Made by a program: the position numbers and the translations under genes. The notes below the pieces were generated by a model, which worked only from the letters and a program-made list of their open reading frames with translations, was not told where the DNA came from and ran no database searches. From Serinicoccus sediminis (lineage in GTDB: Bacteria; Actinomycetota; Actinomycetes; Actinomycetales; Dermatophilaceae): a stretch of 64,000 nucleotides of DNA. The stretch is taken from the NCBI RefSeq assembly GCF_004153545.1, contig NZ_SDVA01000006.1, positions 124,001-188,000 of the forward strand. Reading direction: 5' to 3'. How positions within the stretch are numbered: position 1 is the stretch's first letter; each line of letters opens with the position of its first letter. Positions 3,898 through 57,364 of this stretch are shown one piece after another.

Positions 3898-4745
3898 TCA
3901 CCGGAGCCTCCAGCGGGGTGGGACGGGCCACGGCGCACCGGCTCGCGGCCGACGGCTGGGACCTGCACCTCGCCTCCCGCAGCGCGGGACCGCTGGCCGA
4001 CGCCGCGCAGGAGTGCCGGGCCCGGGGCGCGGGCCAGGTGGCCGTCCACGTCTGCGACGTCTCCGACCGGACCGCGGTCGACGACCTCCTCAGCGGTATG
4101 CCGTCCCCGGACGCCGTCGTCCACGCGCCGGCCGTGCTGGCCTACGGCAGGTTCGAGGACGTCCCGGCAGAGGTGTTCGACGCCAGCGTCCGCACCACCC
4201 TGCACGGCTCCGCGCACGTGGCGCAGGCGTCCCTGCGCGCCTTCGCCCGGTCGGGGGACCGCGGCCACCTGGTGCTGGTCGGGTCCCTCCTCGGCGAGAT
4301 CCCGGTGCCCACGATGTCGTCCTACTGCACCGCCAAGTGGGGGGTGCACGGCCTGGCCCGGTGCCTGCAGGTGGAGACCCGCTCCCTGCCGGGGGTGCAC
4401 GTGAGCCTGGTCGGGCTCGGGGCGGTCCGCACGCCCGTCTACGTGCAGGCCGGGACCTACCAGGGTCGGCGCGGCCGGCCCGCCCCGCCCTCGGTCTCCA
4501 GCGACCACGCGGCGCGTCGCGTGGTGCGCGTCCTGGAGCGCCCGCGCCGGCTGCGCCGGGTCGGGGTGCTCACCGCCGCGACGGCGTGGGGCCACCGGTG
4601 GGCGCCCTCGGCCTACGACGCCCTGATCACGCCGCTCTTCGACCGCTTCGGGCTCGAGCCCGACGTCGACCACGACCGCGACGGCCCGGGCAACGTCCTC
4701 ACCCCGACGCCCGGGGGCGAGGCGGTCGACCACCGGTACCGCTGA
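3885..4745 (+). CDS. Short-chain dehydrogenase/reductase (SDR) 3
   Basis: A 286-residue SDR with TGASSGVG near the N-terminus, Ser in VGSLLG and Tyr-x-x-x-Lys in YCTAK. The usual NAG-type motif after beta-4 reads VHAPAV, a departure from the consensus. The C-terminus holds GNVLTPTPGGEAVDH, equivalent to the tail motif of SDR 2. The GTG at 3885 has GGAGG upstream (ggttggaggac) and overlaps the end of SDR 2 by 13 nt, so the three genes form one translationally coupled operon. Substrate unknown. A hairpin at 4746-4776 follows the stop, and the next genes are convergent. Confidence 0.82.
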   Translation: MRALITGASSGVGRATAHRLAADGWDLHLASRSAGPLADAAQECRARGAGQVAVHVCDVSDRTAVDDLLSGMPSPDAVVHAPAVLAYGRFEDVPAEVFDASVRTTLHGSAHVAQASLRAFARSGDRGHLVLVGSLLGEIPVPTMSSYCTAKWGVHGLARCLQVETRSLPGVHVSLVGLGAVRTPVYVQAGTYQGRRGRPAPPSVSSDHAARRVVRVLERPRRLRRVGVLTAATAWGHRWAPSAYDALITPLFDRFGLEPDVDHDRDGPGNVLTPTPGGEAVDHRYR

Positions 4746-4776
4746 GCCGGCGGGCCGGGCGACGAGGACCGCCGGC
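4746..4776. terminator. Hairpin between convergent SDR operon and CNNM genes
   Basis: GCCGGCGG (4746-4753) and CCGCCGGC (4769-4776) form an 8-bp stem with a 15-nt loop immediately after the SDR 3 stop. It could stop transcription from the left. No U-tract. Confidence 0.45.
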
Positions 4777-4815
4777 GGGCGCGGGCCATACCGCTGCGGT
4801 CGTCGGTGCCGGCCC

Positions 4816-5916
4816 CTAGCGGTGCCCCGCGGGCGCGCCCACCGGCTCCTGCTCGCGGGTGGGCTCGGGGTCGGACTCGTCGTCGAACTCGCCCAGGATC
4901 TGCTCCAGGATGTCCTCCATGGAGGCCATGCCGACGGCTCGGCCCTGCTCGTCCCGCACCAGGGCGAGCTGGCCCCGCTGCTGCCGCAGGCTGGAGACGG
5001 CGTCGATGAGCGGCATCGTCGCGGGGAGGGAGGCGACCGGCTGCAGCAGGTCGCCGAGCGGACGGTCGCCACGGCCCTGCGCGGAGGCGAGGATGGCGTC
5101 GCGCACGTGCACCAGCCCACGGATCCGCTGCTGGCCCTGGCGGCCGGTCGGCTCGACCACGAAGAGCCGGGACCGCCCGCTCTGGTGGCTGAGCCGCTCC
5201 ACGTCGGCCGCGGTCGCCGTGCGCGCGATGGTGACCGCCTGCGTGGTCGGGAACATCACCGACGCCACCGTCTCCTCCTCCAGGCGCAGGGCGCCGGTGA
5301 GGATCTGGTGGTCGGCGTCCTCGAGGACCCCGTGCTCGTGCGACTGGGCCAGCAGGAGCTGCAGGTCGGCCGGGGTCTGGGCGCTGCCGAGGGCGTCGAC
5401 CGGGTCGATCCCCCCGAGCCGCAGCAGCTGGTTGGCCAGCGCGTTCATCAGCCAGAGCACCGGACGGGCGACCCAGGTGAAGGCCCGGAAGGGCAGCGCC
5501 AGCAGCATCGCCGAGCTCTCCGGGTGCGAGATCGCCCACGACTTGGGCGCCATCTCCCCGACCACCATGTGCAGGAAGACGACGATCGAGACCGCGATGA
5601 TCACGGCGATGGCGTGCACCGCCACGTCCGGGACGCCCAGCGCGTGGATGACCGGCTCGAGCAGGTAGGCGACGGCCGGCTTGGCCAGGGCGCCGAGCGC
5701 CAGGGTGCACAGGGTGATGCCCAGCTGCGCGCCGGCCAGCATGAGCGACAGCTCGCGCGAGGCCTCCACCGCTGCCCGGGCCGCGCGGCTGCCCGCCTCG
5801 GCCCGCTCCTCGAGACGGTGCCGCTTGGCGGCCACCACCGCGAACTCCGCCCCGACGAAGAAGCCGTTGGCCACGAGCAGCACGAGGCTGACGACGAGGG
5901 CCTGGGTGGTGCTCAT
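4816..5916 (-). CDS. CNNM/CorC-type (DUF21-CBS) membrane protein, second of pair
   Basis: A 366-residue hemolysin-C/CNNM family protein. An N-terminal DUF21 region (about residues 1-180) has four hydrophobic segments beginning STTQALVVSLVLLVANGFF, followed by a CBS pair (about 200-330). The C-terminus is short and acidic, without the full CorC_HlyC domain seen in its neighbour. CNNM/CorC proteins are linked to Mg2+ (and Co2+) transport or efflux in the cytoplasmic membrane. The start at 5916 overlaps the upstream gene's stop (ATGA), so the two are cotranslated. The pair may work as a heterodimer, since DUF21 proteins dimerise; that is inferred. Confidence 0.88.
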   Translation of the reverse strand: MSTTQALVVSLVLLVANGFFVGAEFAVVAAKRHRLEERAEAGSRAARAAVEASRELSLMLAGAQLGITLCTLALGALAKPAVAYLLEPVIHALGVPDVAVHAIAVIIAVSIVVFLHMVVGEMAPKSWAISHPESSAMLLALPFRAFTWVARPVLWLMNALANQLLRLGGIDPVDALGSAQTPADLQLLLAQSHEHGVLEDADHQILTGALRLEEETVASVMFPTTQAVTIARTATAADVERLSHQSGRSRLFVVEPTGRQGQQRIRGLVHVRDAILASAQGRGDRPLGDLLQPVASLPATMPLIDAVSSLRQQRGQLALVRDEQGRAVGMASMEDILEQILGEFDDESDPEPTREQEPVGAPAGHR

Positions 5917-7476: not shown

Positions 7477-7482
7477 CGGCCC

Positions 7483-7902: not shown

Positions 7903-8273
7903 CCGGGGTGCCCGGGCTCGCGGCGGTGCTCTGCGTGGCCGTGGGAGGGGCCGTCGGCGCGGTGCTGCGGCACCTCGCCTCGCGGCCTCCCCTGGGGCCG
8001 GTGCGCGGGGTGCTGCTGGTCAACGTCGTGGGGGCGGCGGCGCTGGGCGTCCTCGTGGGTCTGTCCGGCGTGCTCGCCCCCTGGCTGTTCCTGCTCCTCG
8101 GCACCGGGCTGTGCGGGGCGCTGACCACCTGGAGCACCCTCGCGGTGCACACCTGGCAGCTCGGCCGGCGCTCACCGGGCCGGGCGGCGGCATACCTCGG
8201 CCTCACCCTGGCCCTGGGCGTCCTGGCGGCCCTGCTCGCCCGGGCGGTGACGGCGGCGCTCCTCGGCGGGTGA
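7899..8273 (+). CDS. crcB: Fluoride efflux channel subunit CrcB/Fluc 2
   Basis: A 124-residue Fluc/CrcB homologue with four hydrophobic helices, NVVGAAAL and GLCGALTTWSTLAV. Compared with crcB1, the GGFTTFST motif reads GALTTWST: one pore Phe is Trp and a Gly is Ala. This fits a heterodimer in which one subunit contributes a modified pore lining. GTG at 7899 overlaps the crcB1 stop, which indicates coupled translation and equal dosage. No fluoride riboswitch was seen upstream of the pair. Confidence 0.9.
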   Translation: MTGVPGLAAVLCVAVGGAVGAVLRHLASRPPLGPVRGVLLVNVVGAAALGVLVGLSGVLAPWLFLLLGTGLCGALTTWSTLAVHTWQLGRRSPGRAAAYLGLTLALGVLAALLARAVTAALLGG

Positions 8274-16176: not shown

Positions 16177-16229
16177 CGCGCCCACGGGCATACCCTGGGA
16201 CCTCGGTGACCCCACGAGCGGGAGGCGGC

Positions 16230-16631: not shown

Positions 16632-17894
16632 ATGAGCGAGCCGGGGAACGACACCACCGCGGTGCAGTCGCGCACCGTGCTGACCCTGATGGGCAGCCAG
16701 ACCCTGGGCGGCATCGGGGTGGCCAGCGGCATCGCCGTCGGCGCGATCGTCGCCGCGGACGTCAGCGGCCGCGACGCGCTGTCCGGCCTCGCGACGACCA
16801 CGCAGGTCCTCGGCGGAGCGCTCTTCACCATCCCGGTGGCCGCGCTCATGGGGCGACGCGGCCGCCGCGCGGGGCTCGCCGCCGCCTACCTCGTCGGCGG
16901 GGTCGGGGCCGCGCTGGCCATCACCGCCACCACGGTCGGGGCCTTCTGGCTGCTGCTCGTCGGCACCACCCTCTTCGGCGCCTCGACCACCGCCAACAGC
17001 CAGGCCCGGTATGCCGCGACCGATCTCGCCGTCCCCGAGCGCCGGGGGCGACAGCTCAGCTGGGTGGTCTGGGCGACGACCATCGGCTCGGTCCTCGGGC
17101 CGAACATGGTGGGGCCCGGCAAGGCCGTCGCCGGCGCGCTCGGGCTGCCCCCGCTCGCCGGTGCCTGGGTGTTCTCCTGCACCGGTTTCCTCCTGGCCGC
17201 GCTGCTGCTGCACCTCGCGCTGCGCCCCGACCCGTTGCTGACCGCCCGCCGGCTCGCCGGGGTGGACACCGACCGCCCGCCGGGGCGGCAGGGCAACGTG
17301 GCCGACGGGCTGCGGATCATCGCGGCCACCCCCACGGCGCTGTGGGCCACCTCGGCCGTCACCGTCGGGCACGTCGTCATGGTGTCGGTCATGGTCATGA
17401 CCCCGCTGCACATGCGGCACGGGCAGGCCGAGATCGAGCTCATCGGGCTGGTCATCAGCCTGCACATCCTCGGGATGTACGGCCTCGCCCCCGTCACCGG
17501 CCAGCTCACCGACCGCCTCGGGGCGCGCCCCGTCGTCCTTCTCGGCGTCGGCCTGCTGGTGCTGGCCTGCGCCCTGTCGGCCCTGAGCCAGGACGGTTTC
17601 TCCGCGGGCCTCACCGCGGGGCTGGTGCTGCTCGGCCTGGGGTGGTCCTGCACCTTCGTGGCCGGGTCCGGCACCGTCGCGGGAGCCGTGCCCGTCCAGG
17701 ACCGTGCCTCGGTGCAGGGGGCCGCCGACCTCGTCATGGGGCTCACGGCCGCCCTCGGCGGCGCCCTGGCCGGGGTCGTCATGGACGTCTTCGGGTATGC
17801 CGTGCTCTGCGCGGTCGCCGCGCTCGCCGCGGCCGGGCTCGCGGCGTACACGGTGGCGCGGGGCGAGCACGAGCGCCGCCCGGTAGGGGTGTAG
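16632..17894 (+). CDS. Major facilitator superfamily (MFS) transporter
   Basis: A 420-residue MFS permease with about 12 hydrophobic helices and an internal charged loop near the middle (DTDRPPGRQGN). The A-motif-like run GQLTDRLGARPVVL lies between helices 8 and 9, and MGRRGRRAGLAAAY in the first half. Substrate and direction are not readable; most such actinobacterial proteins are efflux pumps. GATAGT (16620-16625) lies 6 nt before the ATG, compatible with leaderless expression; no ribosome site is visible. Confidence 0.88.
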   Translation: MSEPGNDTTAVQSRTVLTLMGSQTLGGIGVASGIAVGAIVAADVSGRDALSGLATTTQVLGGALFTIPVAALMGRRGRRAGLAAAYLVGGVGAALAITATTVGAFWLLLVGTTLFGASTTANSQARYAATDLAVPERRGRQLSWVVWATTIGSVLGPNMVGPGKAVAGALGLPPLAGAWVFSCTGFLLAALLLHLALRPDPLLTARRLAGVDTDRPPGRQGNVADGLRIIAATPTALWATSAVTVGHVVMVSVMVMTPLHMRHGQAEIELIGLVISLHILGMYGLAPVTGQLTDRLGARPVVLLGVGLLVLACALSALSQDGFSAGLTAGLVLLGLGWSCTFVAGSGTVAGAVPVQDRASVQGAADLVMGLTAALGGALAGVVMDVFGYAVLCAVAALAAAGLAAYTVARGEHERRPVGV

Positions 17895-17953: not shown

Positions 17954-20900
17954 GTGAGCTCGCTGCGCCCCCCGAACACCCTCGACGAGTCCCGTGTCGA
18001 GGCCGTCCAGCGTGCCCGCACGCGCTGGCGCCACGAGGTCGCCGAGCTCGGCGGCGCCAACACGCTGCTGTGGCACCGCACCTCCCTCACCGGCACCTTC
18101 GACCTCAACCTCGCCCACCCCGGCGGGGTCGCCAAGCTGCTGTCGGGGCGCCCCACCCCGTTGTCGGACCTGGTCCGCGAGCAGGTGGCCTTCACCGACG
18201 CGGCCCGCCGGCTCGGCGGCATCCGCGACAAGGTCACCGAGATGCGCCGCGAGCACGGCCTGGAGACCAGCTTCCTCGCCATCGGGCTCGCGACCTGGAC
18301 GCTGCACCGGGTGCCGGTGCCGCCGCGCGCGCCCGTCCTGCTGCGGGCCTGCACCATCACCCCCACCGACGCCGCGCACTCCGACTTCGTCCTCGAGCTG
18401 CACGAGGACGTCGTCTTCAACCCGGTCCTCGAGCACTACCTGCGCAGCGAGGCCCACCTGCAGCCCGACCCGGCGCTGCTGGCCGGGCTGTCCGCGCAGA
18501 GCCACGGCTTCGACCCCCGGTTGACGTACCGGGCGCTGGAGGACATCTGCGTCGAGATGGCCGGGTTCGCCATCGGGCCGCAGATGGTCATCAGCACCTT
18601 CCCCTGGGCCAAGCTGCCCCTGGTCACCTCCTACACCGGCGACCCCGAGCCGCTCGCCACCCACGACGTCGTCGCGGCGCTGGCGGGAGCGGACGTGCAG
18701 CTGCCCCCCTCCTCGCCGGACCCCCAGCGGGCCGACGACCCGGCCCGGGAGCTCAGCGCCCTGGACGCGGACGCCTCCCAGCGGCTGGTCGTCGACGAGG
18801 TGTCCCACGGGGGCAACCTCGTGCTCGACACCCCGGCGGGCACCGGCGCGACCCAGACGATCGCCAACGTCGTGGTCGGTGCGCTCTCGGAGGGCCGCAC
18901 GGTCATGGTCTGCTCGGAGGACCGCACCTCCCTGCAGGCCCTGCAGCGGCGCCTCGAGCACGTCGGGCTGGGAGACCTGTGCCTCCACCTGGCCGAGGAC
19001 CCCGCCTCGATGCGGCAGACGCTGGCCCGGGTGCGGCATACCCTCGACCACCTGCCGGGCGAGGACGAGCCGGACCTCGGCCCCGACCCGCTGCCGGCCC
19101 GCGCCGACGCCCTCTCGGTGCTGCGCCGCGAGCAGGAGGTGCTGCACCGTGAGCACGCGCCCTGGGCGCTGAGCCTGGCGCGCACCGAGGACGACCTCGC
19201 CGCGCTCGCCACCCTCGACCACCCGCCGGCCTCCCGGGTGCGGCTGCCGCTCGACGTCCTCGGTGAGCTCCCCGAGGAGGAGCTCTCCGCGGTCACCGAC
19301 GCCCTCATCGAGGCGGCCGACTGCGGCGCCTGGTCGGCGGCCCGCACCGAGGACCCCTGGTATGCCGCGCGCCTGACCAGCGAGGACGACGCCGCCCGGG
19401 CCACCGAGATCGTGGGGCGACTGGTCGCCGGGGAGTTCAGCACGGCGCGCGAGCAGGCCGACGCCGTCTGCCGGACCGCGGGCATGCCGCCGCCCGCCAC
19501 CCTCGCGCAGTGGGCGCACCGGCTGGGCCTGGTCGCGCGGGCGAGCGAGACCCTCGACCACTTCTCCCCGAGCATCTACGACGCGCCGCTGGACGACATG
19601 GTCGCCGCGACCGCGGACCGTGACGCCGTGGAGCAGCGCCCCGGCGCGGTGGCGCGCGCCCGGCTGCGTCGACAGGTGCGCCAGCAGCTGCGTCCCGGCA
19701 CCCCGCCGCCGGACCTCGCCCACCGGGTGCGGATGGCCCGCGACGAGCGTCGCGAGTGGGAGGAGGTGGCCGGCAAGGCCGCCCGCCCCGCGGCGCCGGA
19801 GGGGTGGGACGACGCGCTGGCCGCGCACGCCCCCGTGGGCGAGGACCTCGCCTGGCTCGAGCAGGTGCTGGTCGGGACCTCGGCCGGTCACGAGCTGTCG
19901 ACCACCCACCTCGACACGGTGCTGGAGCGTCTCGTGCGCCTCGACGCGCGCGCCGAGCGCGCGGTCGTCGCCGCCCAGGCGCACCCCCTGCTGGCGCCGC
20001 TGCGCGAGCGTGGGCTCGGCGAGCTGGTCGACGACCTGGCCCGTCGCGGGGTGCCCGCCGACCGGGTCGCGCCCGAGGTGCGCTTCGTGCACCGCAGCTC
20101 GGTGCTCGACCACCTGACCTCCGACTCCGTGCCGCAGCAGGTCGGCGGCGAGGCCGTCCGGGAGGCCGAGCGGTCCTTCCGCGCCGCGGACCGTGCCCAC
20201 CTGCAGCGCAACGCGCTGCGCGCACGGCGCGCGGTGCTGCGTCGGCTGCGGCGGACGCTCACCGGGCACGCCTCCCAGCTCGGTGCCTGGCAGCGTGCGC
20301 TCGACGCGAGCCGGGTCGGCGCCGTCGACGCCCGCGACATCATCAGCAGGGCCCCCGACGTCGTGCTGGCCGCTGCCCCGGTGCTGCTGACCAGCCCGCT
20401 CGCGGTGCCGGCGGTCCTGCCGCCGGACCTCACGGTGGACCTGGTGGTCGTCGACCGCGCGGGGCGCACGACCACGGCACGGTCGGCGCCGGCGCTGGCG
20501 CGTGGCCGCCAGGTGCTCATCGTCGGCGACAGCGGTGGCCCGGGCCCCCGTGACTTCTCGGTCGTGGCCGACCCGCGGGCCGAGGCGGCGCCGGGCACGA
20601 CGTCCGCGCCGTCCCTGCTGCGGGACGCGTCGGGGGTGCTGCCGGTCCGCCACCTGGCGGTGCACTACCGCGCCCTCGACCAGGGTCTCGTCGCGCCGTT
20701 GGCCCCGCTCATGCCGCGGCCCGTGCACTCCTTCCCCGGCGTGCACCGTCACCCCGCCGTGCGGGAGCACGTGGTCCAGGGGCACATCAGCATCCGGGTC
20801 GAGACGGCCGTACGGCTGGTGCTCAAGCTCGCCCGGTCCGGGCCGGGCAGCCTGCTCCTCGTCACCGACGACGACGCCGGCGCCGAGGACGCGGGGATCG

Positions 20901-21529: not shown

Positions 21530-21774
21530 TGGGCGCGACCGAGGGTGCCGCGGCCCGGGATGGTGCACCCGGGCGCCCTCCGCGCCGACGGCATACCCGT
21601 CGCCGCGTGGTCGCCCCGCCCACCAACCCCGCCGCCGACCAGACCGACGAGGCTCCTGCTCCCGGTCGCCGGGATCCCGGGACGGCCGGTCGAGGGCGGC
21701 GGGGCGGCGCCCCGGCCCGGCTGGACCCGCGTGACACCTGGATCCTCGAGCAGCGCCCCCCGCACTGGGACTAG
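21529..21774 (+). CDS. Small conserved-type protein, C-terminal WILEQRPPHWD motif
   Basis: An 81-residue basic, Pro/Arg-rich protein without membrane segments. The last 16 residues, DPRDTWILEQRPPHWD, resemble a C-terminal motif I recognise from small uncharacterised actinobacterial proteins; the rest is low complexity. Its ATG overlaps the stop of the helicase-like gene (TGATG), which implies coupled translation and a possible functional link. No function known to me. A real gene rather than a shadow because the overlap, the conserved-looking C-terminus and the position agree. Confidence 0.65.
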   Translation: MGATEGAAARDGAPGRPPRRRHTRRRVVAPPTNPAADQTDEAPAPGRRDPGTAGRGRRGGAPARLDPRDTWILEQRPPHWD

Positions 21775-23632: not shown

Positions 23633-26317
23633 GTGCCCCGTCCCCTCTGGCAACGTCTGGCCGTGCCCGTCGCCGCGATCCTCGTGGTCGTCGTGGTCGC
23701 CACGGCCGTCATCGCCGTCGGCCTGACCCGGCGGGGGTTCCCGCAGGTCTCGGGGGAGCAGGAGGTGGCCGGTCTCGACGCCGAGGTGGAGGTGGTCCGG
23801 GACGACCTGGGCGTCGCGCACATCTACGCCGACACCGCCGAGGACCTCTTCCGGGCGCAGGGCTACGTCGCCGCCCAGGACCGGTTCTTCCAGATGGACC
23901 TGCGGCGGCACATCGTCAGCGGCCGGCTCTCCGAGCTGGTGGGCGAGGGCGGCCTGGAGACCGACAAGGTCATCCGGACGCTGGGGTGGCGGAGGGTCGC
24001 CGAGCAGGAGCTGTCCCTGCTCTCGCCCGAGGCGCGGACCTACCTCGCCGCCTACGCCGCCGGCGTCAACGCCTACATCGACAGCCGCAACGGCCCCTCG
24101 AACCTGGGCCTGGAGTACGTCCTCCTCTCCTCCAGCGCCCCCGGCTACACCGTCCGCCCGTGGGACGAGGTCGACTCCCTCGCCTGGCTCAAGGCCATGG
24201 CCTGGGACCTGCGCGGCAACTACGCCGACGAGCTGGCGCGCGGGCGCCTCGTCGGCCAGGTCTCGCTGGACCAGCTCGAGACGCTCTACCCCGACTACCC
24301 CTACGACGAGCACCCGCCGATCCTGGACCGCAGCGAGTGGACCCCGCCGCAGAGCTCGCCGCGCGGGGTGACCGACAGCCGCGGCGGGGCCCGGGGCACG
24401 GTCCTCGCGCCGGTGCCCGGCCAGGAGGACGCGGCCGACCTCTCGGGCCGCGGCGAGCCGGTGGCCCCCGACGGCCCGATCCTGGACGAGACGCGGCAGT
24501 GGCTCGCGGGGTCGCCCCAGGACGCCTTCGCCGACACCACGACCGCCCTCGCGGCCGTGCCCGAGCTCATGGGCTCCGGCGAGGGCATCGGCTCCAACTC
24601 GTGGGTCGTCTCCGGCGACCACACGGAGACGGGTATGCCGCTGCTCGCCAACGACCCGCACCTCGCCATCTCCCAGCCCGGGATCTGGATGCAGAGCGGT
24701 CTGCACTGCCGCGAGCTGAGCGAGGAGTGCCCCTTCGACGTCACCGGCTTCACCTTCGCCGGCCTGCCCGGGGTCGTCATCGGCCACAACCGGTCCATCG
24801 CCTGGGGCTTCACCAACCTCGACCCCGACGTCACCGACTTCTACCTCGAGGACACCGTGGACGACACGGTCCTGCGGGACGAGGACTACGTCGCCATGGA
24901 CGTCCGCACCGAGACCATCCGGGTGGCCGGCGGCGACGACGTCGAGCTCACGGTGCGGGAGACCTCGCACGGGCCGATCGTCTCCGACGTGCTGGAGGCG
25001 GCCGGGGCCATGGGCGACAACGGCCCGCTCGACGGCGTCGCCACGTCGCGGGACTTCGAGGTGGCCCTGCGCTGGACCGGGCTGGAGCCCGCCCGCACCG
25101 CCGAGGCCGTCTTCGCCCTCAACGCGGCCAGCGACTGGGAGGAGTTCCGCTCCGCGGCCGAGCTCTTCGCGGTCCCCTCGCAGAACCTCCTCTACGCCGA
25201 CACCGAGGGCAACATCGGCTACCAGGCGCCGGGCCTGGTGCCGGTCCGGCGCAGCGCCACGCACGCGACCCCGCCCGGCTACTACCCGGCGCCCGGCTGG
25301 GACGACCAGTACGCCTGGCGCGGGTGGGTCGACTTCGACGACCTGCCGACGGCCTACAACCCCGAGGACGGCATGATCGTCGCCGCCAACCAGGCGGTCG
25401 TGCGGGGCACCACCCCGTTCCTCACGACGGAGTACGACAAGGGCTACCGCTCGACGCGCATCCTGGAGCTGCTGCAGCAGCACCTGGGCGAAGGCCCGCT
25501 CACCAGCGCCGACATGAACGAGATCCAGCTGGACGACACCAGCACCTTCGCCCTCGACCTCGTGCCCTTCCTCACCGCGGTCGACCTCGAGGGGGAGTTC
25601 TACACCGAGCCGCAGGCCATGCTGCGCGACTGGGACGGCACCTCGCCGGCGGACGGCGAGCAGACCGCAGCGGCCGCCTACTTCTACGCCGTCTACGACA
25701 ACCTGCTCGAGGCGGTCTTCGACGACGAGCTGCCGCCCGACCTGGGCGCGACCGGCAACTCCCGGTCGATGCAGATCATGGCCGACCTCATGGCCTCGCC
25801 GGAGAGCGTCTGGTGGGACGACCAGCGCACCCCCGGCGTCGTCGAGTCCCGGGACGAGGTGCTGCGGACCGCGCTGGTCGACGCGCGCCTCGACCTCACC
25901 CGGCAGATCTCCAAGGACCCCGCCGACTGGACGTGGGGTGAGCTGCACCGGGCCCACCTCCGGCACCAGGTGCTGGGTGACGAGGGGATGCCCGGAGTGG
26001 TGCAGGACATCGTCAACCGCGGTCCGTTCCCCGTCCCGGGCAGCAGCGCCATGGTCAACGCGATGAACTGGGACGCCGCCACCGACAGCTTCGACGTCAC
26101 CTCGGCGCCCTCCATGCGGATGGTCGTCGACCTGGCGGACCTGGACGCCTCCACGTGGGTCAACCAGACGGGCACCTCAGGGCACCCGTTCCACCCCAAC
26201 TACGACGACCAGACCCGGGCCTGGATCGAGGGCGACACCTACCCGTGGGCCTTCACCCGGGCCGCCGTCGACGAGGCCGGCAGGCAGACGCTCACCCTGC
26301 TGCCCGGCGAGGGCTGA
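23633..26317 (+). CDS. Penicillin acylase-family N-terminal nucleophile (Ntn) hydrolase
   Basis: An 894-residue S45-family proenzyme. A hydrophobic segment (residues 8-31) should export or anchor it. The alpha chain spans about 35-320, and the autoprocessing site is GSNSW, making Ser321 the N-terminal nucleophile of the beta chain. The following HTETGMPLLANDPHL run is diagnostic. The family cleaves amide bonds in penicillins, acyl-homoserine lactones or other acylated amides; its natural substrate here is unknown, and penicillin resistance should not be assumed. It ends exactly where the convergent cyclo-ligase gene ends, the two stop codons lying in one palindrome. Confidence 0.93.
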   Translation: MPRPLWQRLAVPVAAILVVVVVATAVIAVGLTRRGFPQVSGEQEVAGLDAEVEVVRDDLGVAHIYADTAEDLFRAQGYVAAQDRFFQMDLRRHIVSGRLSELVGEGGLETDKVIRTLGWRRVAEQELSLLSPEARTYLAAYAAGVNAYIDSRNGPSNLGLEYVLLSSSAPGYTVRPWDEVDSLAWLKAMAWDLRGNYADELARGRLVGQVSLDQLETLYPDYPYDEHPPILDRSEWTPPQSSPRGVTDSRGGARGTVLAPVPGQEDAADLSGRGEPVAPDGPILDETRQWLAGSPQDAFADTTTALAAVPELMGSGEGIGSNSWVVSGDHTETGMPLLANDPHLAISQPGIWMQSGLHCRELSEECPFDVTGFTFAGLPGVVIGHNRSIAWGFTNLDPDVTDFYLEDTVDDTVLRDEDYVAMDVRTETIRVAGGDDVELTVRETSHGPIVSDVLEAAGAMGDNGPLDGVATSRDFEVALRWTGLEPARTAEAVFALNAASDWEEFRSAAELFAVPSQNLLYADTEGNIGYQAPGLVPVRRSATHATPPGYYPAPGWDDQYAWRGWVDFDDLPTAYNPEDGMIVAANQAVVRGTTPFLTTEYDKGYRSTRILELLQQHLGEGPLTSADMNEIQLDDTSTFALDLVPFLTAVDLEGEFYTEPQAMLRDWDGTSPADGEQTAAAAYFYAVYDNLLEAVFDDELPPDLGATGNSRSMQIMADLMASPESVWWDDQRTPGVVESRDEVLRTALVDARLDLTRQISKDPADWTWGELHRAHLRHQVLGDEGMPGVVQDIVNRGPFPVPGSSAMVNAMNWDAATDSFDVTSAPSMRMVVDLADLDASTWVNQTGTSGHPFHPNYDDQTRAWIEGDTYPWAFTRAAVDEAGRQTLTLLPGEG

Positions 26318-34390: not shown

Positions 34391-34429
34391 GCGCACGGCA
34401 TACCCGCAGGGGCGCCGCGAGCGGCGACG

Positions 34430-36040
34430 TCAGGTCCAGAAGTCGAACCACATCCGCAGGTGCCACTGCTCCCGCGGGATGGTGATCGCCGTGTGCACGG
34501 GCCAGTACCAGACGAAGACGACGGCGGCCAGGGTCAGGTAACCCACCACGGCCACGGCGCCCCACCGGCGTCGGCGCGCCGTGGCGTCCGCCGGGCCGAG
34601 GACCAGCGCGAGGCAGGTGACCACCACCAGCACCAGCCAGGGGACGAAGGCGACCGCGTAGAAGCTGTAGATCGTCCGGGTCTGGTAGAGGAACCACGGC
34701 AACCAGCCGGCGGCGACCCCGGCCAGCGCCGCCCCCGCCCGCCAGTCGCGGCCCAGCAGCCACAGGAAGAGGACGACGAGCAGCCCGATCGTCGCGCCCC
34801 ACCAGAGCACGATGTTGCCGAGCGAGGCGATGTACTCCACGCACTCGGCCGCCCCGCAGCCCTGCTCGCCCCGCTCCGGCCACTCGGCGTAGAACAGGGT
34901 GGGCCGCCACTGGACCGTCCAGCTCCACGGGTTGGAGCTCCAGGCGTGCTCGTTGGCCAGGTCGATGTGGAAGGCCCACTGCTCGGCGTGGTAGGCCCAC
35001 AGCGAGCGCAGCGGGTCCGGGACCAGCGCCGCGAGGCTGCCGGGCGGGGCGGGGTGGTCGACGGCCCACTGCCGCTTCCACCCGCCGTCGGTCGCGAACC
35101 AGCCGGCCCAGCCCGCGACGTAGGTCACCAGGGCGGTCGGCACCATGAGCAGGAACGCCGGTATGCCGTCGCGCACCACGGTGCCGGCCAGCCAGTCCCG
35201 GGCGCCGGCGGCGCGGCGCGCGCCGAGGTCCCAGGCGACGGTCATGAGCCCGAACACGGCGAGGAAGTACAGCCCCGACCACTTGGTGCCGATGGCCAGG
35301 CCGAGGCAGACGCCGGCCGCCAGGCGCCACCACCGGACGCCGAGCGAGGGTCCCCACCACCGCCGGGCCCGGGCCCACGCCGACCGGGGAGCGAGCGCGT
35401 CCGGCCCGTGCCGCGCCTGCCACCACGGGCCCCAGCGCGCCGCGAGCCGGCGGCGCCCCTGCTCGCGGTCGAGCAGCAGGAGGAGGAAGGCGAGCAGCAC
35501 CCACCACATGAGGAAGAGGTCGAGCAGGCCGATCCGCGACGAGGCGAAGTGGTGGCCGTCGAGGGCCAGCAGGGTGGAGGCGCTGACGGCCAGCAGCGCG
35601 TTCTTCCAGATCAGCCAGGCGCAGACGCCGAGGACGGCGATGGACAGCGTGCCGACGGTCGCCGCCGACAGCCGCCAGCCGACCGGGGACTCCGGCCCGG
35701 TGACGAGCTCCCCGAGCGCGATCATCCACTTGCCCACGGGCGGGTGGACGACGAGGTCGGGCTGGTTGCCGAAGACGTCGGGGTCGCCGGCGTTCCACAG
35801 CTCGTCCGGCTCCTCGAGCCCCGCCTTCACCTCGCGCTCGTGCCCGAAGCGCACGAGCGACCAGGCCTGCTTGACGTAGTAGGTCTCGTCGAAGACCAGC
35901 CGGTCGGGGTGACCGAGCCGCCAGAAGCGCAGGGCACCCCCCACCAGGGTCACCAGCAGCACGCCGACCACCGCGATGCGCCGTTGCCGGGCGAGCTCCG
36001 CGGGCGGCGGGCCGAGCAGGCGCGCCCGCAGTGACTCCAT
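34430..36040 (-). CDS. pmt: Polyprenol-phosphate-mannose--protein O-mannosyltransferase Pmt (GT39)
   Basis: A 536-residue integral membrane glycosyltransferase with about ten or more helices. The N-terminal loop carries the catalytic Asp-Glu in VFDETYYVKQAWS, and a second loop the VHPPVGKW run; the C-terminal region has the WSWTVQWRPTLFY motif of actinobacterial Pmt. It mannosylates secreted proteins from polyprenyl-phosphate mannose at the outer face of the membrane, during Sec export. The start at 36040 is chosen because TACGAT (36048-36053, minus) ends 7 nt upstream; the ATG at 36049 overlaps that hexamer. In mycobacteria pmt stands divergently next to rsmI; here sdhCAB lies between. Confidence 0.92.
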   Translation of the reverse strand: MESLRARLLGPPPAELARQRRIAVVGVLLVTLVGGALRFWRLGHPDRLVFDETYYVKQAWSLVRFGHEREVKAGLEEPDELWNAGDPDVFGNQPDLVVHPPVGKWMIALGELVTGPESPVGWRLSAATVGTLSIAVLGVCAWLIWKNALLAVSASTLLALDGHHFASSRIGLLDLFLMWWVLLAFLLLLLDREQGRRRLAARWGPWWQARHGPDALAPRSAWARARRWWGPSLGVRWWRLAAGVCLGLAIGTKWSGLYFLAVFGLMTVAWDLGARRAAGARDWLAGTVVRDGIPAFLLMVPTALVTYVAGWAGWFATDGGWKRQWAVDHPAPPGSLAALVPDPLRSLWAYHAEQWAFHIDLANEHAWSSNPWSWTVQWRPTLFYAEWPERGEQGCGAAECVEYIASLGNIVLWWGATIGLLVVLFLWLLGRDWRAGAALAGVAAGWLPWFLYQTRTIYSFYAVAFVPWLVLVVVTCLALVLGPADATARRRRWGAVAVVGYLTLAAVVFVWYWPVHTAITIPREQWHLRMWFDFWT

Positions 36041-39579: not shown

Positions 39580-39599
39580 CCCAGCAGGGGCCCCGGGGT

Positions 39600-40439
39600 A
39601 TGCCTGATGCCGCGCTGGTCCTCGCCGCCACCCCCATCGGCGACAGCCGCGACGCCAGCCCCCGGCTGCTGGCCGAGCTGGCGGAGGCACCCGTGGTCGC
39701 CGCGGAGGACACGCGCCGGCTGCGGCGGCTGACCGACCGCCTCGGCATCGCCGTGACCGGTGAGGTGGTCAGCTACCACGAGCACAACGAGGCGTCCCGG
39801 ACCCCCGAGCTGGTCGAGCGCATCGCCGCCGGCGAGCGGGTCCTGCTCGTCACCGACGCCGGGATGCCGTCGGTCTCCGACCCCGGCTACCGGCTCGTCC
39901 AGGCCTGCGTCGAGGCCGACCTGCCGGTGACCTGCGTGCCCGGCCCCTCGGCGGTGCTCATGGCGCTCGCGGTCAGCGGGCTGCCGGTGGACCGCTTCTG
40001 CTTCGAGGGCTTCCTGCCGCGCAAGACCGGGGAGCGCGAGCGGGTCCTGGCCGGGCTGGCCCAGGAGCCGCGCACCATGGTGTTCTTCGAGGCGCCGCAC
40101 CGGCTCGCGGCCACCCTGGCGTCGATGGCCACCACCCTGGGGGAGGGGCGCCCGGCCGCGGTGTGCCGCGAGCTGACGAAGACCTACGAGGAGGTCCGCC
40201 GCGGCGGTCTGGCCGAGCTGGCGGCCTGGGCGCAGGACGGGGTCAAGGGCGAGATCACCGTCGTCGTCGCCGGCGTCACCGCCACCGACGCGCCGCGGGT
40301 GGACCCGGGTGACGTCATACCCGAGATCCTGGAGCGGGTCGCCGCCGGCGAGCGGCTCAAGGACGTCACCAAGGACGTCGCCCGCGCCACCGGTCTGTCC
40401 GCCAAGGAGCTCTACGACGAGGCCGTCCGCTCCCGCTGA
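39600..40439 (+). CDS. rsmI: 16S rRNA (cytidine1402-2'-O)-methyltransferase RsmI
   Basis: A 279-residue SAM-dependent tetrapyrrole-methylase-fold enzyme that 2'-O-methylates C1402 in the ribosomal decoding site. Signatures: LAATPIGD at the N-terminus, VAAEDTRRLRRL, LLVTDAGMPSVSDPGYRLV, VPGPSAVLMALAVSGLP, and GFLPRKTGERE. The C-terminal ERLKDVTKDVARATGLSAKELYDEAV tail is also typical. ATG at 39600 lies inside a GGTATGCC octamer. In mycobacteria rsmI and pmt are neighbours; here rsmI follows sdhB closely and may be cotranscribed with sdhCAB. Confidence 0.95.
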   Translation: MPDAALVLAATPIGDSRDASPRLLAELAEAPVVAAEDTRRLRRLTDRLGIAVTGEVVSYHEHNEASRTPELVERIAAGERVLLVTDAGMPSVSDPGYRLVQACVEADLPVTCVPGPSAVLMALAVSGLPVDRFCFEGFLPRKTGERERVLAGLAQEPRTMVFFEAPHRLAATLASMATTLGEGRPAAVCRELTKTYEEVRRGGLAELAAWAQDGVKGEITVVVAGVTATDAPRVDPGDVIPEILERVAAGERLKDVTKDVARATGLSAKELYDEAVRSR

Positions 40440-41794: not shown

Positions 41795-41807
41795 GTATGC
41801 GGCATAC
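41795..41807. promoter_or_regulatory. 13-nt perfect palindrome upstream of the DUF4126 gene
   Basis: GTATGC-G-GCATAC lies about 55 nt upstream of the DUF4126 start, in the 216-nt divergent region before the peptidoglycan-binding gene. It could be an operator, or two inverted halves of the GGTATGCC word that is common in this DNA. Confidence 0.35.
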
Positions 41808-41957
41808 CTCCCGCCGGTCTCCTGCGTCGCGCCCGGACCGCGCGTGCGCAGCGCACCGGTCGTGGGTCCTGCGCGACGCGGTGCGGTATCTGGGCGCCTC
41901 GTCGTCGCTCCCACCCGGTGAGGCCGGCGCACCCTGCCTGGCCGGAGAGGCAGTGTC

Positions 41958-42800: not shown

Positions 42801-42885
42801 CGGCGCCACGGCATACCGGGCCCGACCCCACCTCCTGGCCGCCTCTGCCGTTGAGGGGATGACAGGGTGTCGAGCAGGAGGCGGT

Positions 42886-44767: not shown

Positions 44768-45004
44768 GCCGAGCTGGCGGGGCAGCGGCGCCGGCATACC
44801 GGGGGTGTCACAGAGAACCCAGCCGTCACTCGCGCACCGACCTGCGGAGATCTTCACCGAGGACGGGGGTATATCGCGGGCATCGGTGACTTTCTCCGCA
44901 CCGTGCGACGGGTGCGGCTCGTGTGGCCTGTGTGAACGCTCGCGGAGGACCCTGGACCGCACTCCGTCGTCCTGGGACGGGGAGGACGTCTCCCGGGGCG
45001 CACC

Positions 45005-45018: not shown

Positions 45019-46848
45019 ATGAGTCATGTCCTGTCCGCGGTCGCCTGGCCGTATGCCAACGGCCCGCGCCACATCGGCCACGTCGCCGGGTTCGGCGTCC
45101 CCTCCGACGTCTTCAGCCGCTACATGCGCATGGCGGGCCACGACGTGCTCATGGTGTCCGGGTCGGACGAGCACGGGACCCCGATCCTCGTGCAGGCCGA
45201 CGCGGCCGGGCAGAGCCCGCAGGAGTTCATCGACACCAACCACGCGCTCATCGCCGCCGACCTCGCGGCGCTGGGGGTGTCCTACGACCTCTACACCCGC
45301 ACCACCACGGCGAACCACGACGAGGTCGTGCAGCAGATGTTCCTCGCCTGCTGGCGCAACGGCTACCTGCTCGAGCAGACCCAGCAGGTGGCGCTCAGCC
45401 CGTCCACCGGGCGCACCCTGCCGGACCGCTACATCGAGGGCACCTGCCCGATCTGCGGGTATGCCGAGGCGCGCGGCGACCAGTGCGACAACTGCGGCAA
45501 CCAGCTCGACCCGGCGGACCTGCGGGACCCGCGCTCGAAGATCAACGGCGAGACGCCGGAGTTCCGCGACACCGAGCACTTCTTCCTCGACCTGCCGGCG
45601 CTCGCCGAGGCGCTCGGTGAGTGGCTCGACGGCCGGGAGGCCAGCGGGTTGTGGCGGCCCAACGTCATCCGCTTCTCCCAGAACATCCTCGCCGAGATCC
45701 GGCCGCGGCCGATCACCCGCGACATCGACTGGGGCATCACCATCCCGCTCGAGGGCTGGGCGGAGAACCCCACGAAGAAGCTCTACGTCTGGTTCGACGC
45801 GGTCATCGGCTACCTCTCGGCCTCGGTCGAGTGGGCGCGGCGGCTGCCCGGCGAGCAGGGGGAGCGGTGGCGCGAGTGGTGGAACGGCAGGGACGCGCTG
45901 ACCTACTACTTCATGGGCAAGGACAACATCACCTTCCACTCCCAGATCTGGCCCGCGGAGCTGCTGGCGCACAACGGCGGCGGCAGCAAGGGTGGGGAGG
46001 TCGGGCCCTACGGCGAGCTGAACCTGCCGACCGAGGTGGTCTCCAGCGAGTTCCTCACCATGGAGGGCAAGCAGTTCTCCACCTCCCGCGGCGTCGTGAT
46101 CTACGTGCGGGACGTGCTCGAGCGCTACCAGCCGGACGCGCTGCGCTACTTCCTCTCCGCCGCCGCGCCGGAGACCGCTGACTCCGACTTCTCCTGGCCG
46201 GAGTTCGTCAAGCGCACCAACACCGAGCTCGTCGCGGGCTGGGGCAACCTCGTCAACCGGACGGCCTCGATGATCGCCAAGAACTTCGGCGAGGTCCCGC
46301 GCCCCGGCGAGCTGCAGGACGTCGACCGGGCGCTGCTGGAGCAGGTGGCGGCCGGCTTCGACACCGTCGGTCGGCTCATCGCCTCGCACAAGCAGAAGGC
46401 CGCGCTCGCCGAGGCGATGCGCCTGGTCGGCGAGGCCAACGCCTACGTCTCGACCACCGAACCGTTCAAGCTCAAGGGTGAGGACCAGCGGGAGCGCCTG
46501 GCGACCGTGCTGCATACCCTCGCCCAGGCGGTGGTCGACCTCAACACGATCCTCTCGCCCTACCTGCCGCACTCCTCGACGGCGGTGCACCGGGCGCTCG
46601 GCGGCGAGGGCGACTTCCAGCCGATGCCCCGCCTCGAGACCGTGGCGGACCTCGACGACCCGGCACGGCCGGACTACCCGGTCATCACCGGCGACTACTC
46701 CACGGCGCCGCGGTGGGAGCACCGCCCGGTCGCGGTGGGTGCGCCGGTCGCCAAGCCCTCGCCGATCTTCACCAAGCTCGACCCCTCGGTGGTCGAGGAG
46801 GAGCGCGCCCGGCTCGGGCTGGTGGACACGGCAGGTGCCGCGGTATGA
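45019..46848 (+). CDS. metG: Methionine--tRNA ligase
   Basis: A 609-residue class I synthetase. The HIGH motif is HIGH in [11 protein letters not shown] (residues 11-21), and the KMSKS-equivalent is the run FSTSRG in [12 protein letters not shown] zinc knuckle CPICG...CDNCG lies near residues 148-165. The anticodon-binding helical domain follows (about 400-560). It lacks the C-terminal dimerisation domain of longer MetRS. It charges initiator and elongator tRNA-Met. Followed by tatD on the same strand, as in mycobacteria, after a 19-nt gap. Confidence 0.97.
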
Positions 46849-47756: not shown

Positions 47757-48659
47757 GTGACGCGCCCACCGGAGGACCTCGACCCGGCGGCCGGGGAGAA
47801 CCTGCTCGGGCCGGCGCAGGTGCGGCAGCTCGCGGACCGCCTCGGCATCCGCCCGACCAAGCAGTGGGGGCAGAACTTCGTCATCGACAAGGGCACGGTG
47901 CGCCGCATCGTGCGCGCCGCCGGGGTCGGGCCGGACGACGTGGTGCTCGAGGTCGGCCCGGGCCTGGGCTCGCTGACCCTGGCGCTGCTGCCGCGGGCCC
48001 GGCACGTGACGGCGCTCGAGATCGACCCGGCGCTCGCCACCCAGCTTCCGCTGACGGTGGGCGAGCTCGCCCCGGACCTCGCCGAGCGGCTGACGGTGCT
48101 GCATACCGACGCGCTGCGGGTGACCGAGCTGCCCGGCCCGCAGCCCACCGCGCTCGTCGCGAACCTGCCCTACAACGTGGCGGTCCCGGTGGTGCTCCAC
48201 CTGCTCGCGACCGTCCCGACCCTGCGCACCGTCCTCGTCATGGTGCAGCTCGAGGTCGCCGAGCGGCTGGCCGCGCGCCCCGGCAGCAAGGTCTACGGCG
48301 TGCCCAGCGTGAAGGCCGCCTGGTACGCCGACGTCACCGGCGCGGGGCGCATCGGCCGCACCGTCTTCTGGCCGTCCCCCAACGTCGACTCGGGCCTCGT
48401 GCGGATGGTGCGTCGGGAGCCGCCGGAGGCCGTGGCCACCCGCGAGCAGGTCTTCGCGGTCGTCGACGCCGCCTTCGCGCAGCGCCGCAAGACGCTGCGC
48501 GCCGCCCTCGCCGGGTGGGCCGGGTCGGCTGCGCAGGCCGAGGCATACCTCACCGCGGCCGGGGTCGACCCCCGGGCGCGCGGCGAGGTGCTCACCGTCG
48601 AGGACTTCACCCGCATCGCCGACGCCGCCGCAGGTCAGCACCCCGGCACGCAGGGCTGA
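47757..48659 (+). CDS. rsmA: 16S rRNA (adenine1518-N6/adenine1519-N6)-dimethyltransferase RsmA (KsgA)
   Basis: A 300-residue Rossmann-fold methyltransferase that dimethylates two adenines in helix 45 of 16S rRNA, a late 30S assembly check. Motifs: [14 protein letters not shown], the SAM site [10 protein letters not shown], and catalytic [10 protein letters not shown]. The C-terminal domain with [22 protein letters not shown] is typical. GTG at 47757 is preferred because GGAGG (47743-47747) lies 9 nt upstream; an ATG at 47748 directly abuts that site and would add three residues. Followed by ispE, as in other actinobacteria. Confidence 0.95.
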
Positions 48660-49716: not shown

Positions 49717-51602
<1,886 letters not shown>

Positions 51603-53209: not shown

Positions 53210-54760
53210 GTGACGACCCACCACCCCGCTGCCGTCATCATCCTCGCCGCTGGTCAGGGCACCCGCATGAAGAGCTCGATCCCCAAGGTGCTGCACCGGA
53301 TCGGTGGTCGCTCGCTCGTCGGTCACGCGATGTATGCCGCCCGCCAGGCCGGGCCGCAGCACCTCGCCGTGGTGGTGCGGCACGAGCGGGAGCGGGTCGC
53401 CGCGCACGTGGCCGAGCTCGACGCCCGCGCTGTCGTCGCCGACCAGGACGAGGTGCCCGGCACCGGGCGCGCCTGCGAGTGCGGCCTGGACGCTCTGCCC
53501 GCCGACCTCACCGGCACCGTGCTCGTGACCATGGGCGACGTGCCGCTGCTCTCGGGCGAGACGCTGCTCGAGCTGACCCGGGTGCACGAGGAGCGCGGAT
53601 CGGCCGTCACCCTCCTCTCCGCGGTCGTCGACGACGCCGGGACCTACGGCCGGGTGGTCCGCGACGCGGACGGCGAGCTCGCCGAGATCATGGAGTTCAA
53701 GGACGCGCTGCGCCGCCGCGAGGAGGGCGACCCCGACTACGCGCACGTCGTGGACATCCGCGAGTTCAACTCCGGCATCTACGCCTTCGACGTCGAGGTG
53801 CTGCGCAGCGCGCTAACCCGGGTGGGCCAGGCCAACGCGCAGGGGGAGAAGTACCTCACCGACGTCATCCGGATCGCCCGCGAGGAGGGCCGCACCGTCG
53901 TCGCCCACCCGCTCGCCGACCTCATGCAGACCGAGGGGGTCAACGACAAGGTGCAGCTCGCGGCGCTCGGCAAGGAGCTCAACCGGCGCGTCGTCACCCG
54001 GCACATGCGCGACGGGGTCGTCGTCGTGGACCCGGACACCACGTGGATCGACGCGGACGTCACCATCGGCCAGGACACCGTGGTCCGCCCCGGCACCCAG
54101 CTGCTCGGCGCCACCTCCGTCGGCGCCGAGGCCACGGTCGGCCCGGACACGACCCTCACCGACTGCGAGGTCGGCGACCGAGCGAGCGTCGTCCGCACCC
54201 AGGCCGAGCACGCGGTCGTCGGGCCGCGCGCCACGGTCGGCCCGTTCTCCTACCTCCGCCCCGGCACGGTGCTCGGGGAGGGCGGCAAGATCGGCGGCTT
54301 CGTCGAGACCAAGAACGCCGACATCGGGCCCGGCGCCAAGGTCCCGCACCTCACCTACTGCGGCGACGCCACCATCGGTGAGGGCGCCAACATCGGCGCC
54401 GGCACGATCTTCGCCAACTACGACGGGGTCGCCAAGCACCACACCACCGTCGGGCGGCACAGCTTCGTCGGGTCCGACTCGGTGCTCGTCGCCCCGGTCG
54501 AGATCGCCGACGGGGCGTATGTCGCGGCCGGCTCCACGATCGAGGGCCGGGTCGAGCCGGGCCAGATCGCGGTGGCCCGCTCGCGGCAGCGCAACGTCGA
54601 CGGCTGGGTCGCGCGCCGCCGGGCCGGCACCGCGACCGCCGCTGCGGCGCAGGCGGCCACCGACCGCGCGGCGGAGGCGGCCACCGACGGCGACGCGGAC
54701 GGCATACCGCAGCAGCACGGCGACGACCACGTCCCCGACCCGAGCGAGCAGGAGAGCTGA
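53210..54760 (+). CDS. glmU: Bifunctional UDP-N-acetylglucosamine pyrophosphorylase/glucosamine-1-phosphate N-acetyltransferase GlmU
   Basis: A 516-residue two-domain enzyme making UDP-GlcNAc for peptidoglycan and other envelope polymers. The N-terminal uridyltransferase has [18 protein letters not shown] (residues 10-27); a linker follows near 230-250. The C-terminal left-handed beta-helix (about 250-470) has repeated hexapeptides such as IGQDTV and [11 protein letters not shown], with acetyl-CoA residues near YDGVAKHHT. An Ala/Asp-rich tail of about 45 residues ([18 protein letters not shown]) is extra. GTG start with TACAGT 7 nt upstream; stop overlaps the prs ATG. Confidence 0.97.
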
Positions 54761-55740: not shown

Positions 55741-55815
55741 CCTGTCCCTCTGGACGGAGGGTCCTGGTGCCCCGTTCCCCAGGGACGCCTGTCCAGGACG
55801 GCGAGGGCTGGGGAT

Positions 55816-55845
55816 TTCGTGACCCGCCCGCCCGGGCGATAGACT
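55816..55845 (+). promoter_or_regulatory. Promoter of rplY
   Basis: TAGACT (55840-55845) is a TANNNT -10 box with TTCGTG (55816-55821) 18 nt upstream. It would yield a leader of about 130 nt before the rplY ATG, unlike the leaderless genes. I see partial hairpins in that leader but no family I can name. Confidence 0.5.
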
Positions 55846-55982
55846 GGCCGGCGTTGCCTCGGCGAGGGATGCTGCACGGTGTCCGTCATCGACGAAGAGC
55901 TCACGGTGGGTGCTGCCCCGCGCCGTGTCCCGCGTCGAGGCCTGACCACACCCACCACATACCCCTGAACGAGGTCTCACCC

Positions 55983-56669: not shown

Positions 56670-56705
56670 CCCACCGCGGGCAGCAGCCCGCCCCAGCGTG
56701 ATCGT

Positions 56706-56735
56706 GGCCGCGCCCGGTGTCCTCCGGGCGCGGCC
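56706..56735 (+). terminator. Strong hairpin between rplY and pth
   Basis: GGCCGCGCCCGG (56706-56717) and CCGGGCGCGGCC (56724-56735) form a perfect 12-bp stem with a 6-nt loop, 36 nt after the rplY stop. No U-tract; it may attenuate rather than abolish read-through into pth. Confidence 0.7.
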
Positions 56736-56764
56736 GCGCCATGTCGGCACAGGAACGAGGAAGC

Positions 56765-57364
56765 ATGTCTGAGGCCCCGTGGCTCGTGGTCGGTCTGGGC
56801 AACCCCGGCAGCAGGTATGCCGGCAACCGCCACAACGTGGGCGCCATGGTCGTCGAGGAGCTGGCGCGGCAGGCGGGGACGAGCCTGCGCCAGCACAAGG
56901 CAGGACGGGCCTGGGCGGCCGAGGTGCGGCTGGGCACGGCCCCGGGCGGGCTGCCGGGGCCGCGGGCCGTCCTGGCCCGGCCGATGACCTACATGAACGT
57001 CTCTGGCGGGCCGGTGTCCGGCCTCGCGACCTTCTACAAGGTGCCCACCGAGCGGGTCGTCGTCGTGCACGACGAGCTCGACATCGAGCCCGGCCAGGTG
57101 CGGCTCAAGCGCGGTGGCGGCGAGGGCGGGCACAACGGCTTGCGCTCCATCAGCCAGTCGCTGGGCAGCAAGGACTACCTGCGGGTGCGGCTCGGGATCG
57201 GCCGGCCCCCCGGGCGTCAGGACCCGGCCGACTGGGTCCTCTCCGACTTCCCGGCCCGGGACCGGGTCGAGACCGAGCTGCTCGTCGGTGACGGCGCGGA
57301 CGCCGTGGTCGACCTGGCCCAGCTGGGTCTGGAGGCGACGCAGCAGCGCTTCCACGCCCGCTGA
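56765..57364 (+). CDS. pth: Peptidyl-tRNA hydrolase
   Basis: A 199-residue Pth. It frees tRNA from peptidyl-tRNA dropped by stalled ribosomes. Motifs: [17 protein letters not shown] with catalytic His (residues 10-26), [18 protein letters not shown] with the catalytic Asp, and [13 protein letters not shown]. The ATG at 56765 has GAGGA 5 nt upstream, chosen over an in-frame ATG at 56717 that would overlap the hairpin. The rplY-pth order is conserved in actinobacteria. Confidence 0.96.

Follow-up and report, generated by a model that had tools for sequence, protein, structure and literature searches.

To our knowledge, sequence-directed DNA uptake is established in two Gram-negative families only. 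The present analysis concerns the octamer GGTATGCC, which is over-represented in a 64-kb window (the whole stretch of DNA analysed, C66:124001-188000) of a genome of the genus Ornithinimicrobium, in a family that we take to be the Dermatophilaceae of GTDB. The word is real, occurs throughout the genome and is common to about half of the family genomes searched. In its extended form, GGTATGCCG(T/C), it is probably a DNA-uptake-sequence-like word with lineage dialects, a reading drawn by analogy with the Neisseriaceae and Pasteurellaceae and held here with moderate confidence.

In Micrococcus luteus, transformation needs tad-like genes and is abolished by the loss of comEC, and the authors of that work consider a similar use of tad genes possible in other members of the phylum (accessible part of PMC4322843). 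No uptake word for Actinobacteria is mentioned in the accessible parts of that paper or of a 2019 review (PMC6370729). A literature search likewise returned no described over-represented uptake word in Actinobacteria, with subscription journals mostly outside its coverage and novelty hence unproven, and the text matches to the letters of GGTATGCC, among the matches listed, look like chance.

Over-representation and anatomy of the word

In the window, GGTATGCC occurs 24 times, divided equally between the strands (Table 1), versus 1.3 copies expected under a third-order Markov model; in 100 shuffles preserving dinucleotides the mean was 0.76 and the maximum 4, and none reached 24. The 23 positions listed in the initial annotation are exact in every case, a 24th site on the minus strand at 41801 having been overlooked, and its two copies of the palindrome GGCATGCC were recovered by count. 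Using the reversed word as control for whole-genome counts, the whole assembly (G000; 3,547,192 bases in 97 contigs) contains 1363 copies, 698 forward and 665 reverse, versus 18 of the control (10 and 8). In 464 kb of this genome, comprising 400 kb of fetched sequence and the window, there are 156 sites versus 3.3 expected under a third-order model for whose training the sites were masked. These counts bear out the original description of a word strongly over-represented on both strands, and show it to be genome-wide.

All further anatomy was derived from the same 464 kb. GGTATGCC and the words that extend it by one or two bases head the list of 8- to 10-mers, among them CGGCATACC (129 versus 3.4 expected under the third-order model) and ACGGCATACC (60 versus 0.4). 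The consensus GGTATGCCG(T/C) is non-palindromic: over the 156 sites, G occupies base 9 in 83%, T and C occupy base 10 in 44% and 31%, respectively, and past base 10 the sole standout is a weak C at base 14. Given this scant conservation beyond ten bases, mobile repeats were rejected as the cause. Variants with one mismatch at the outer positions are enriched several-fold (observed/expected: TGTATGCC 28/1.5, CGTATGCC 24/4.3, AGTATGCC 13/1.8, GGTATGCG 22/3.5, GGTATGGC 18/4.5), several variants at positions 3 to 5 are enriched mildly (GGGATGCC 38/16.4, GGTCTGCC 50/28.6, GGTAGGCC 40/21.0), and those at positions 2 and 6 stay near expectation. As read from the sequence, GGTATGCC has no internal palindrome of four or more bases, and its palindromic relatives occur at expectation (GGCATGCC 7/7.8, GGTATACC 1/0.6).

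With genes called by a simple home-made gene finder, 123 of the 156 sites fall within called genes, 31 are intergenic and 2 are partial. Synonymous-codon shuffling left 10.3 genic sites in place of 123; in five reading frames the observed counts were 10-45 versus 1.2-4.3 after shuffling, and the sixth gave 1 versus 0.05. Intergenic density (0.63/kb) is twice the genic density (0.30/kb; Fisher P 0.0005, approximate test). On the frame and shuffling results, codon bias was rejected as the cause, and the earlier arguments that codon choice fails to explain the word and that it also stands between genes both hold. The two outcomes that had been named as refuting the word, a count at Markov level and a codon bias confined to a single frame, are excluded.

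Distribution of the word and of other candidate dialects

A genome was considered strong for a word when its copies numbered 200 or more and were no fewer than five times those of the reversed control. Among the 186 family genomes searched, 96 were strong for GGTATGCC, a further 22 reached 100 copies and twice the control, 67 stayed below 100 copies, and one genome (G066) was high in both word and control. Thirty of the 31 genomes of the genus under study (g1) were strong, the exception (G022) having 38 copies, so that copy number within one genus ranges from 38 to 2180; the family maximum is 2228 (G176). A single locus of O. pekingense (L001) holds 10 copies in 21.8 kb. Across 296 genomes of the phylum, the bar was passed by just the three that belong to this family. 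Some genomes of another family (f22) show a mild excess of GGTATGCC, about 2 to 5 times the control.

Other dispersed, strand-mixed words, some related in letters and some unrelated, were found in four genomes of the family from lineages without GGTATGCC (G201, G140, G108, G149) and in a second family of the order (f19). G201 carries a strand-mixed CGGATGCCG(G/T), the 9-mer occurring 36 times versus 2.3 in 60 kb. Two genera low in GGTATGCC, represented by G108 (L177-L183) and G149 (L206, L207), have rCGAAGGGG, i.e. (G/A)CGAAGGGGG, on both strands. G140 has a dispersed CGTACGGCG with palindromic flanks (GACGCCGTACGGCGTC), and its congener G141 has 1694 copies of GGTATGCC. A weaker other word, CGATGCGG, is present in G139. 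Reading 40-140 kb of each genome, no strong replacement word was seen in G184, G178, G078, G077, G094 or G022, and no strong other word in G142, which is moderately enriched for GGTATGCC (347 versus 82). Weak words in G206 (GGACGCGT), G146 (GTACGCCG), G037 (CGGCGTCGT) and G044 (GCCGATGCG), which exceeded expectation by a factor of only about 3 to 8 in 40 kb, are not claimed. Pooled loci of different species returned mostly the words of shared genes and were left out of word discovery.

The family f19, perhaps the Microbacteriaceae, is characterized by CGGATGCC: in 19 of its 22 genomes (all but G250, G376 and G416) this word has 1281-4093 copies and stands at five or more times its control. The remaining 275 genomes searched all fall below that bar. 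In 60 kb of two f19 genomes the word has the consensus CGGATGCCnCG and lies on both strands, and it is denser than GGTATGCC in the window. The genome under study is barely enriched for CGGATGCC (226 versus 198 control), as is the f19 genome G055 for GGTATGCC (51 versus 28 control); since each is hardly enriched for the word of the other, the two words are mutually exclusive in this pair. A threefold excess of CGGATGCC (591 versus 197 control) was observed in G031, of genus g2, and not in G177 of the same genus.

The first alternative to be weighed against these distributions is a HIP1-like iterated word, kept by an internal process such as modification, repair or replication control and unrelated to import. 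HIP1 of cyanobacteria is over-represented, has an unsettled function and is associated with orphan methyltransferases (accessible part of PMC4390886), and the palindromic flanks of CGTACGGCG in G140 lean the same way. The word studied here is, however, non-palindromic, its palindromic relatives GGCATGCC and GGTATACC show no excess, and it varies by lineage, whereas HIP1 has the same sequence in all instances described in the available text of PMC4390886. We consider a HIP1-like origin unlikely.

Foreign DNA, strand distribution and spacing

The comEC gene of the genome under study is split, with profile positions 1-33 at C46:68443-68541 and positions 30-269 at C46:108976-109701. The insert between them (L230, L236, L240, L241; Table 1) encodes endolysin, minor tail and tape-measure proteins, and was called phage from PHROG matches in three of the eight proteins tested from L236. 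This 40.4-kb prophage is depleted of the word, with 2 sites where 13.6-15.5 would be expected (P of about 1e-4 or below), and permuted octamers are as dense within it as elsewhere (63.4 versus 59.5 per kb). Depletion in foreign DNA, as looked for in a DNA uptake sequence, was thus found on one prophage. A second stretch, C7:1-20137 (20.1 kb, 64.9% GC), has no site versus 7.7 expected; because it was picked as the longest gap, it lends weak support to foreign-DNA depletion. It is perhaps foreign, and by eye it holds a DnaK-like frame. Two further long gaps on C6 contain ordinary-looking chromosomal genes and lie within chance.

With regard to the insertion itself, a frame resembling a serine recombinase was noted by eye near the right end of the prophage. 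Inserts of ~40-44 kb interrupt comEC at one and the same profile position (~33) in three genomes from two genera (G000, G002 and G183); the insert examined for phage genes, that of G000, is a prophage. No clear attachment repeat was found. comEC seems to be a phage integration site; comK is the integration site of a Listeria phage. In G157 and G170, the comEC profile match comes in two adjacent pieces, possibly through frameshifts or sequence errors.

The scarcity of the word in the prophage would also be expected of a Chi-like mark of native DNA read within the cell, for instance by a nuclease active in recombination or defence that leaves chromosomal DNA intact or repairs it, in contrast to phage DNA, and the accessible part of PMC4390886 names Chi among three classes of over-represented oligomer. 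The strand data argue against such a mark. Stretches short of whole replichores were tested in four genomes (400 kb of contigs of the genome under study, 160 kb each of G012 and G007, 80 kb of G021), and strands were mixed at about 50:50 in all of them (61/71, 27/31, 44/53 and 27/21, respectively), with no excess between 20-kb pieces and no replichore-type orientation of the kind sought for Chi or KOPS. Chi, in contrast, is oriented with replication, and a Chi-like role for GGTATGCC is quite improbable. An apparent polarity in G059, G061, G062 and G064, which were plus-only among the places listed, was rejected, as the fetched pieces also hold minus sites even though they were chosen around listed plus sites and are biased accordingly (12 plus and 2 minus in the G062 pieces). 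The first 100 places listed for G062 comprise 52 plus and 48 minus; those for G064 are all plus, yet its whole count is 233/260. Since this count and the fetched pieces include minus sites, the place listing of G064 is uninformative on strand.

Spacing between sites is random (coefficient of variation 1.006), and across the four genomes neighbouring pairs within 150 bp number 20 versus 21.7 expected. The orientation of these close pairs is skewed, 16 of 20 being opposed (P 0.012), and two of them, both on C8, form clear hairpins. The initial annotation had also proposed a chromosome-organising word, and a role in organisation or segregation (KOPS, SMC loading or similar) would suit a word that is genome-wide and conserved; in the polar sense it is unsupported, as strands are evenly mixed in the stretches tested and spacing is random, and together with the range of copy numbers among species of one genus this makes it highly improbable.

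Conservation and turnover at orthologous sites

Site conservation was assessed against 20 relatives in the predicted metG region and by pairwise comparison with G012 and G007 over 164 kb. In the metG region, relatives retain the intergenic sites 42810 and 44793 wherever they align, a part of them retain the codon sites 45458 and 50234, and turnover is apparent at 48542 and 41801 (Table 1). In the pairwise comparisons, G012 conserves 41 of 56 aligned sites versus 4407 of 8228 occurrences of permuted octamers (Fisher P 0.003), and G007 conserves 35 of 53 versus 2931 of 7260 (P 0.0002). Counted in both directions, single-base alternatives at aligned sites number 46, comprise transitions and transversions and affect seven of the eight octamer positions; 7 of the 46 follow the GGCATGCC route (C at position 3) and the other 39 lie at positions 1 and 3 to 8. 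The extra conservation and the many substitution types point to selection or biased recombination, and not to a single mutational route. The methylation/repair route suggested in the initial annotation, by which methylated GGCATGCC would deaminate to GGTATGCC, has a negligible probability, for although one C-to-T step separates the two words and accounts for those 7 differences, GGCATGCC is undepleted and the remaining 39 are of other kinds.

Competence machinery

The genome under study encodes a Flp/Tad locus with two T2SSF proteins, a T2SSE ATPase, ParA-like, RcpC and TadE/G-like proteins and a Flp pilin. Next to comEC lies a ComEA-like gene whose product has SLBB and helix-hairpin-helix domains. 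The type IVa pilus was rejected as reader of the word: its marker PilM matches in 7 of the 186 family genomes, 6 of them over the cut-off, and the genome under study is not among them. ComP is a minor pilin of the type IVa pilus. Judged by PilM, reading of the ComP type is thus not found here, and another reader would be needed.

Table 1. Positions of GGTATGCC in the window and of other features. Locations without a contig or locus name are window coordinates; relatives are the 20 compared in the metG region.
Feature	Location	Strand	Remark
GGTATGCC site	4095..4102	+	G next
GGTATGCC site	8189..8196	-	
GGTATGCC site	16187..16194	-	outside called genes; next base C instead of G
GGTATGCC site	17008..17015	+	
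GGTATGCC site	17794..17801	+	
GGTATGCC site	19035..19042	-	
GGTATGCC site	19359..19366	+	
GGTATGCC site	21590..21597	-	outside called genes
GGTATGCC site	24632..24639	+	Gly-Met-Pro frame
GGTATGCC site	26768..26775	-	
GGTATGCC site	27142..27149	+	
GGTATGCC site	31260..31267	+	
GGTATGCC site	34397..34404	-	outside called genes
GGTATGCC site	35160..35167	+	kept in 3/3 relatives aligning there (of 20)
GGTATGCC site	39597..39604	+	overlaps predicted start codon
GGTATGCC site	41801..41808	-	outside called genes; absent from initial annotation; whole word in one aligning relative only
GGTATGCC site	42810..42817	-	outside called genes; kept in 4/4 relatives aligning there (of 20)
GGTATGCC site	44793..44800	-	outside called genes, upstream of predicted metG; kept in 5/5 aligning relatives (of 20)
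GGTATGCC site	45458..45465	+	within predicted metG; kept in 11/20 aligned relatives
GGTATGCC site	48542..48549	-	word in 3/20 aligned relatives (G021, G011, G007), not in nearest four (G028, G030, G029, G012)
GGTATGCC site	50234..50241	-	kept in 13/20 aligned relatives
GGTATGCC site	51297..51304	+	
GGTATGCC site	54701..54708	-	
GGTATGCC site	56814..56821	+	Arg-Tyr-Ala frame; open reading frame resembling peptidyl-tRNA hydrolase (name presumed from the N-terminal sequence)
comEC insert, G000	C46:68541-108976		
comEC insert, G002	C1:1161212-1201313		
comEC insert, G183	C1:850663-894550		
CGTACGGCG, G140	L184-L189		
CGGATGCC (f19 examples)	L218, L219, L233		G236, G055, G221

Discussion

The word is asymmetric, dense and without polarity, stands between genes as well as within them, is conserved beyond control words, is scarce in a prophage and is replaced by other words in some other lineages, a combination that would be expected of DNA uptake sequences. 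An uptake word, which had not been considered in the initial annotation, fits these observations better than either a methylation/repair bias or a chromosome-organising word, and is the best supported interpretation. According to this model, a naturally transformable cell would favour DNA of its own kind by means of a short asymmetric word (in the form GGTATGCCGT). Free DNA bearing the word would be preferred at binding and import, for which the Flp/Tad pilus followed by ComEA/ComEC is the probable route, and would then enter the chromosome by recombination. Because word-bearing DNA would be preferentially imported and recombined, sites born by mutation would spread and persist, and foreign DNA would be without them. 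A shift in receptor specificity could let a lineage drift to another word, giving rise to a dialect (e.g. that of CGGATGCCGCG), and the word would decay where competence or its specificity is lost.

Several observations weigh against an uptake word. Generic competence genes are uninformative on the word, because ComEC is found in 180 and the T2SSE ATPase in 185 of the 186 family genomes, word-bearing or not. Six genomes have no ComEC match (G019, G023, G072, G107, G191, G204), five of them strongly and the sixth moderately word-rich, all six being fragmented or 58-95% complete. The genome under study lacks a PilM match, and its own comEC is interrupted by a prophage, so that this strain may currently be non-competent. 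Close pairs are no commoner than chance, and hairpin pairs, which are typical of uptake words, are few. The six GGTATGCC-low genomes named above show no strong replacement, and the replacement word CGTACGGCG of G140 looks palindromic. Finally, that the cells are naturally competent, that they prefer word-bearing DNA, that a receptor and a drive exist and that the other words are dialects of one system are all things that we infer.

More broadly, the chances seem evenly balanced that Actinomycetota possess uptake-word systems of their own, occurring in two or more families of one order and read by Flp/Tad pili instead of type IVa pili, with genus-level dialect switches that set sexual barriers and with comEC-integrating phages that may exploit or block them. 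If this is true, monoderm high-GC bacteria with Flp pili would hold a counterpart to the known systems, and sequence-directed uptake would have evolved more than once; the word would moreover help in the search for natural transformation among environmental genera that are hard to work with, and the many lineages available for comparison could help to find the receptor. If the word does not serve uptake, a strand-symmetric, lineage-variable word in hundreds to thousands of copies still needs an explanation.

Among the described systems, the DNA uptake sequence (DUS) of the Neisseriaceae is comparable as a word of 10-12 bases with eight lineage dialects, one of which, king3DUS, has 2787 and 3603 copies, and unlike in being bound by ComP (accessible part of PMC3630211); the other words described above are candidate counterparts of its dialects. 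The Neisseriaceae also belong to another phylum, and their word is another one. The DUS shares the letters ATGCCGT with GGTATGCCG, which is taken as coincidence. The apparatus for the uptake signal sequence (USS) of the Pasteurellaceae differs. The USS resembles the present word in its 9-base consensus and its copy number, about 1300 in H. influenzae, and differs in that USS pairs often form terminators (PMC5217627, in the part available), whereas only two clear hairpins were found here. Cyanobacterial HIP1 is similarly short, very over-represented and of unsettled function (PMC4390886, available part); it is palindromic, whereas GGTATGCC is asymmetric and lineage-variable. Chi is likewise over-represented and octamer-sized, and the word described here departs from it in having no strand orientation in the stretches tested.

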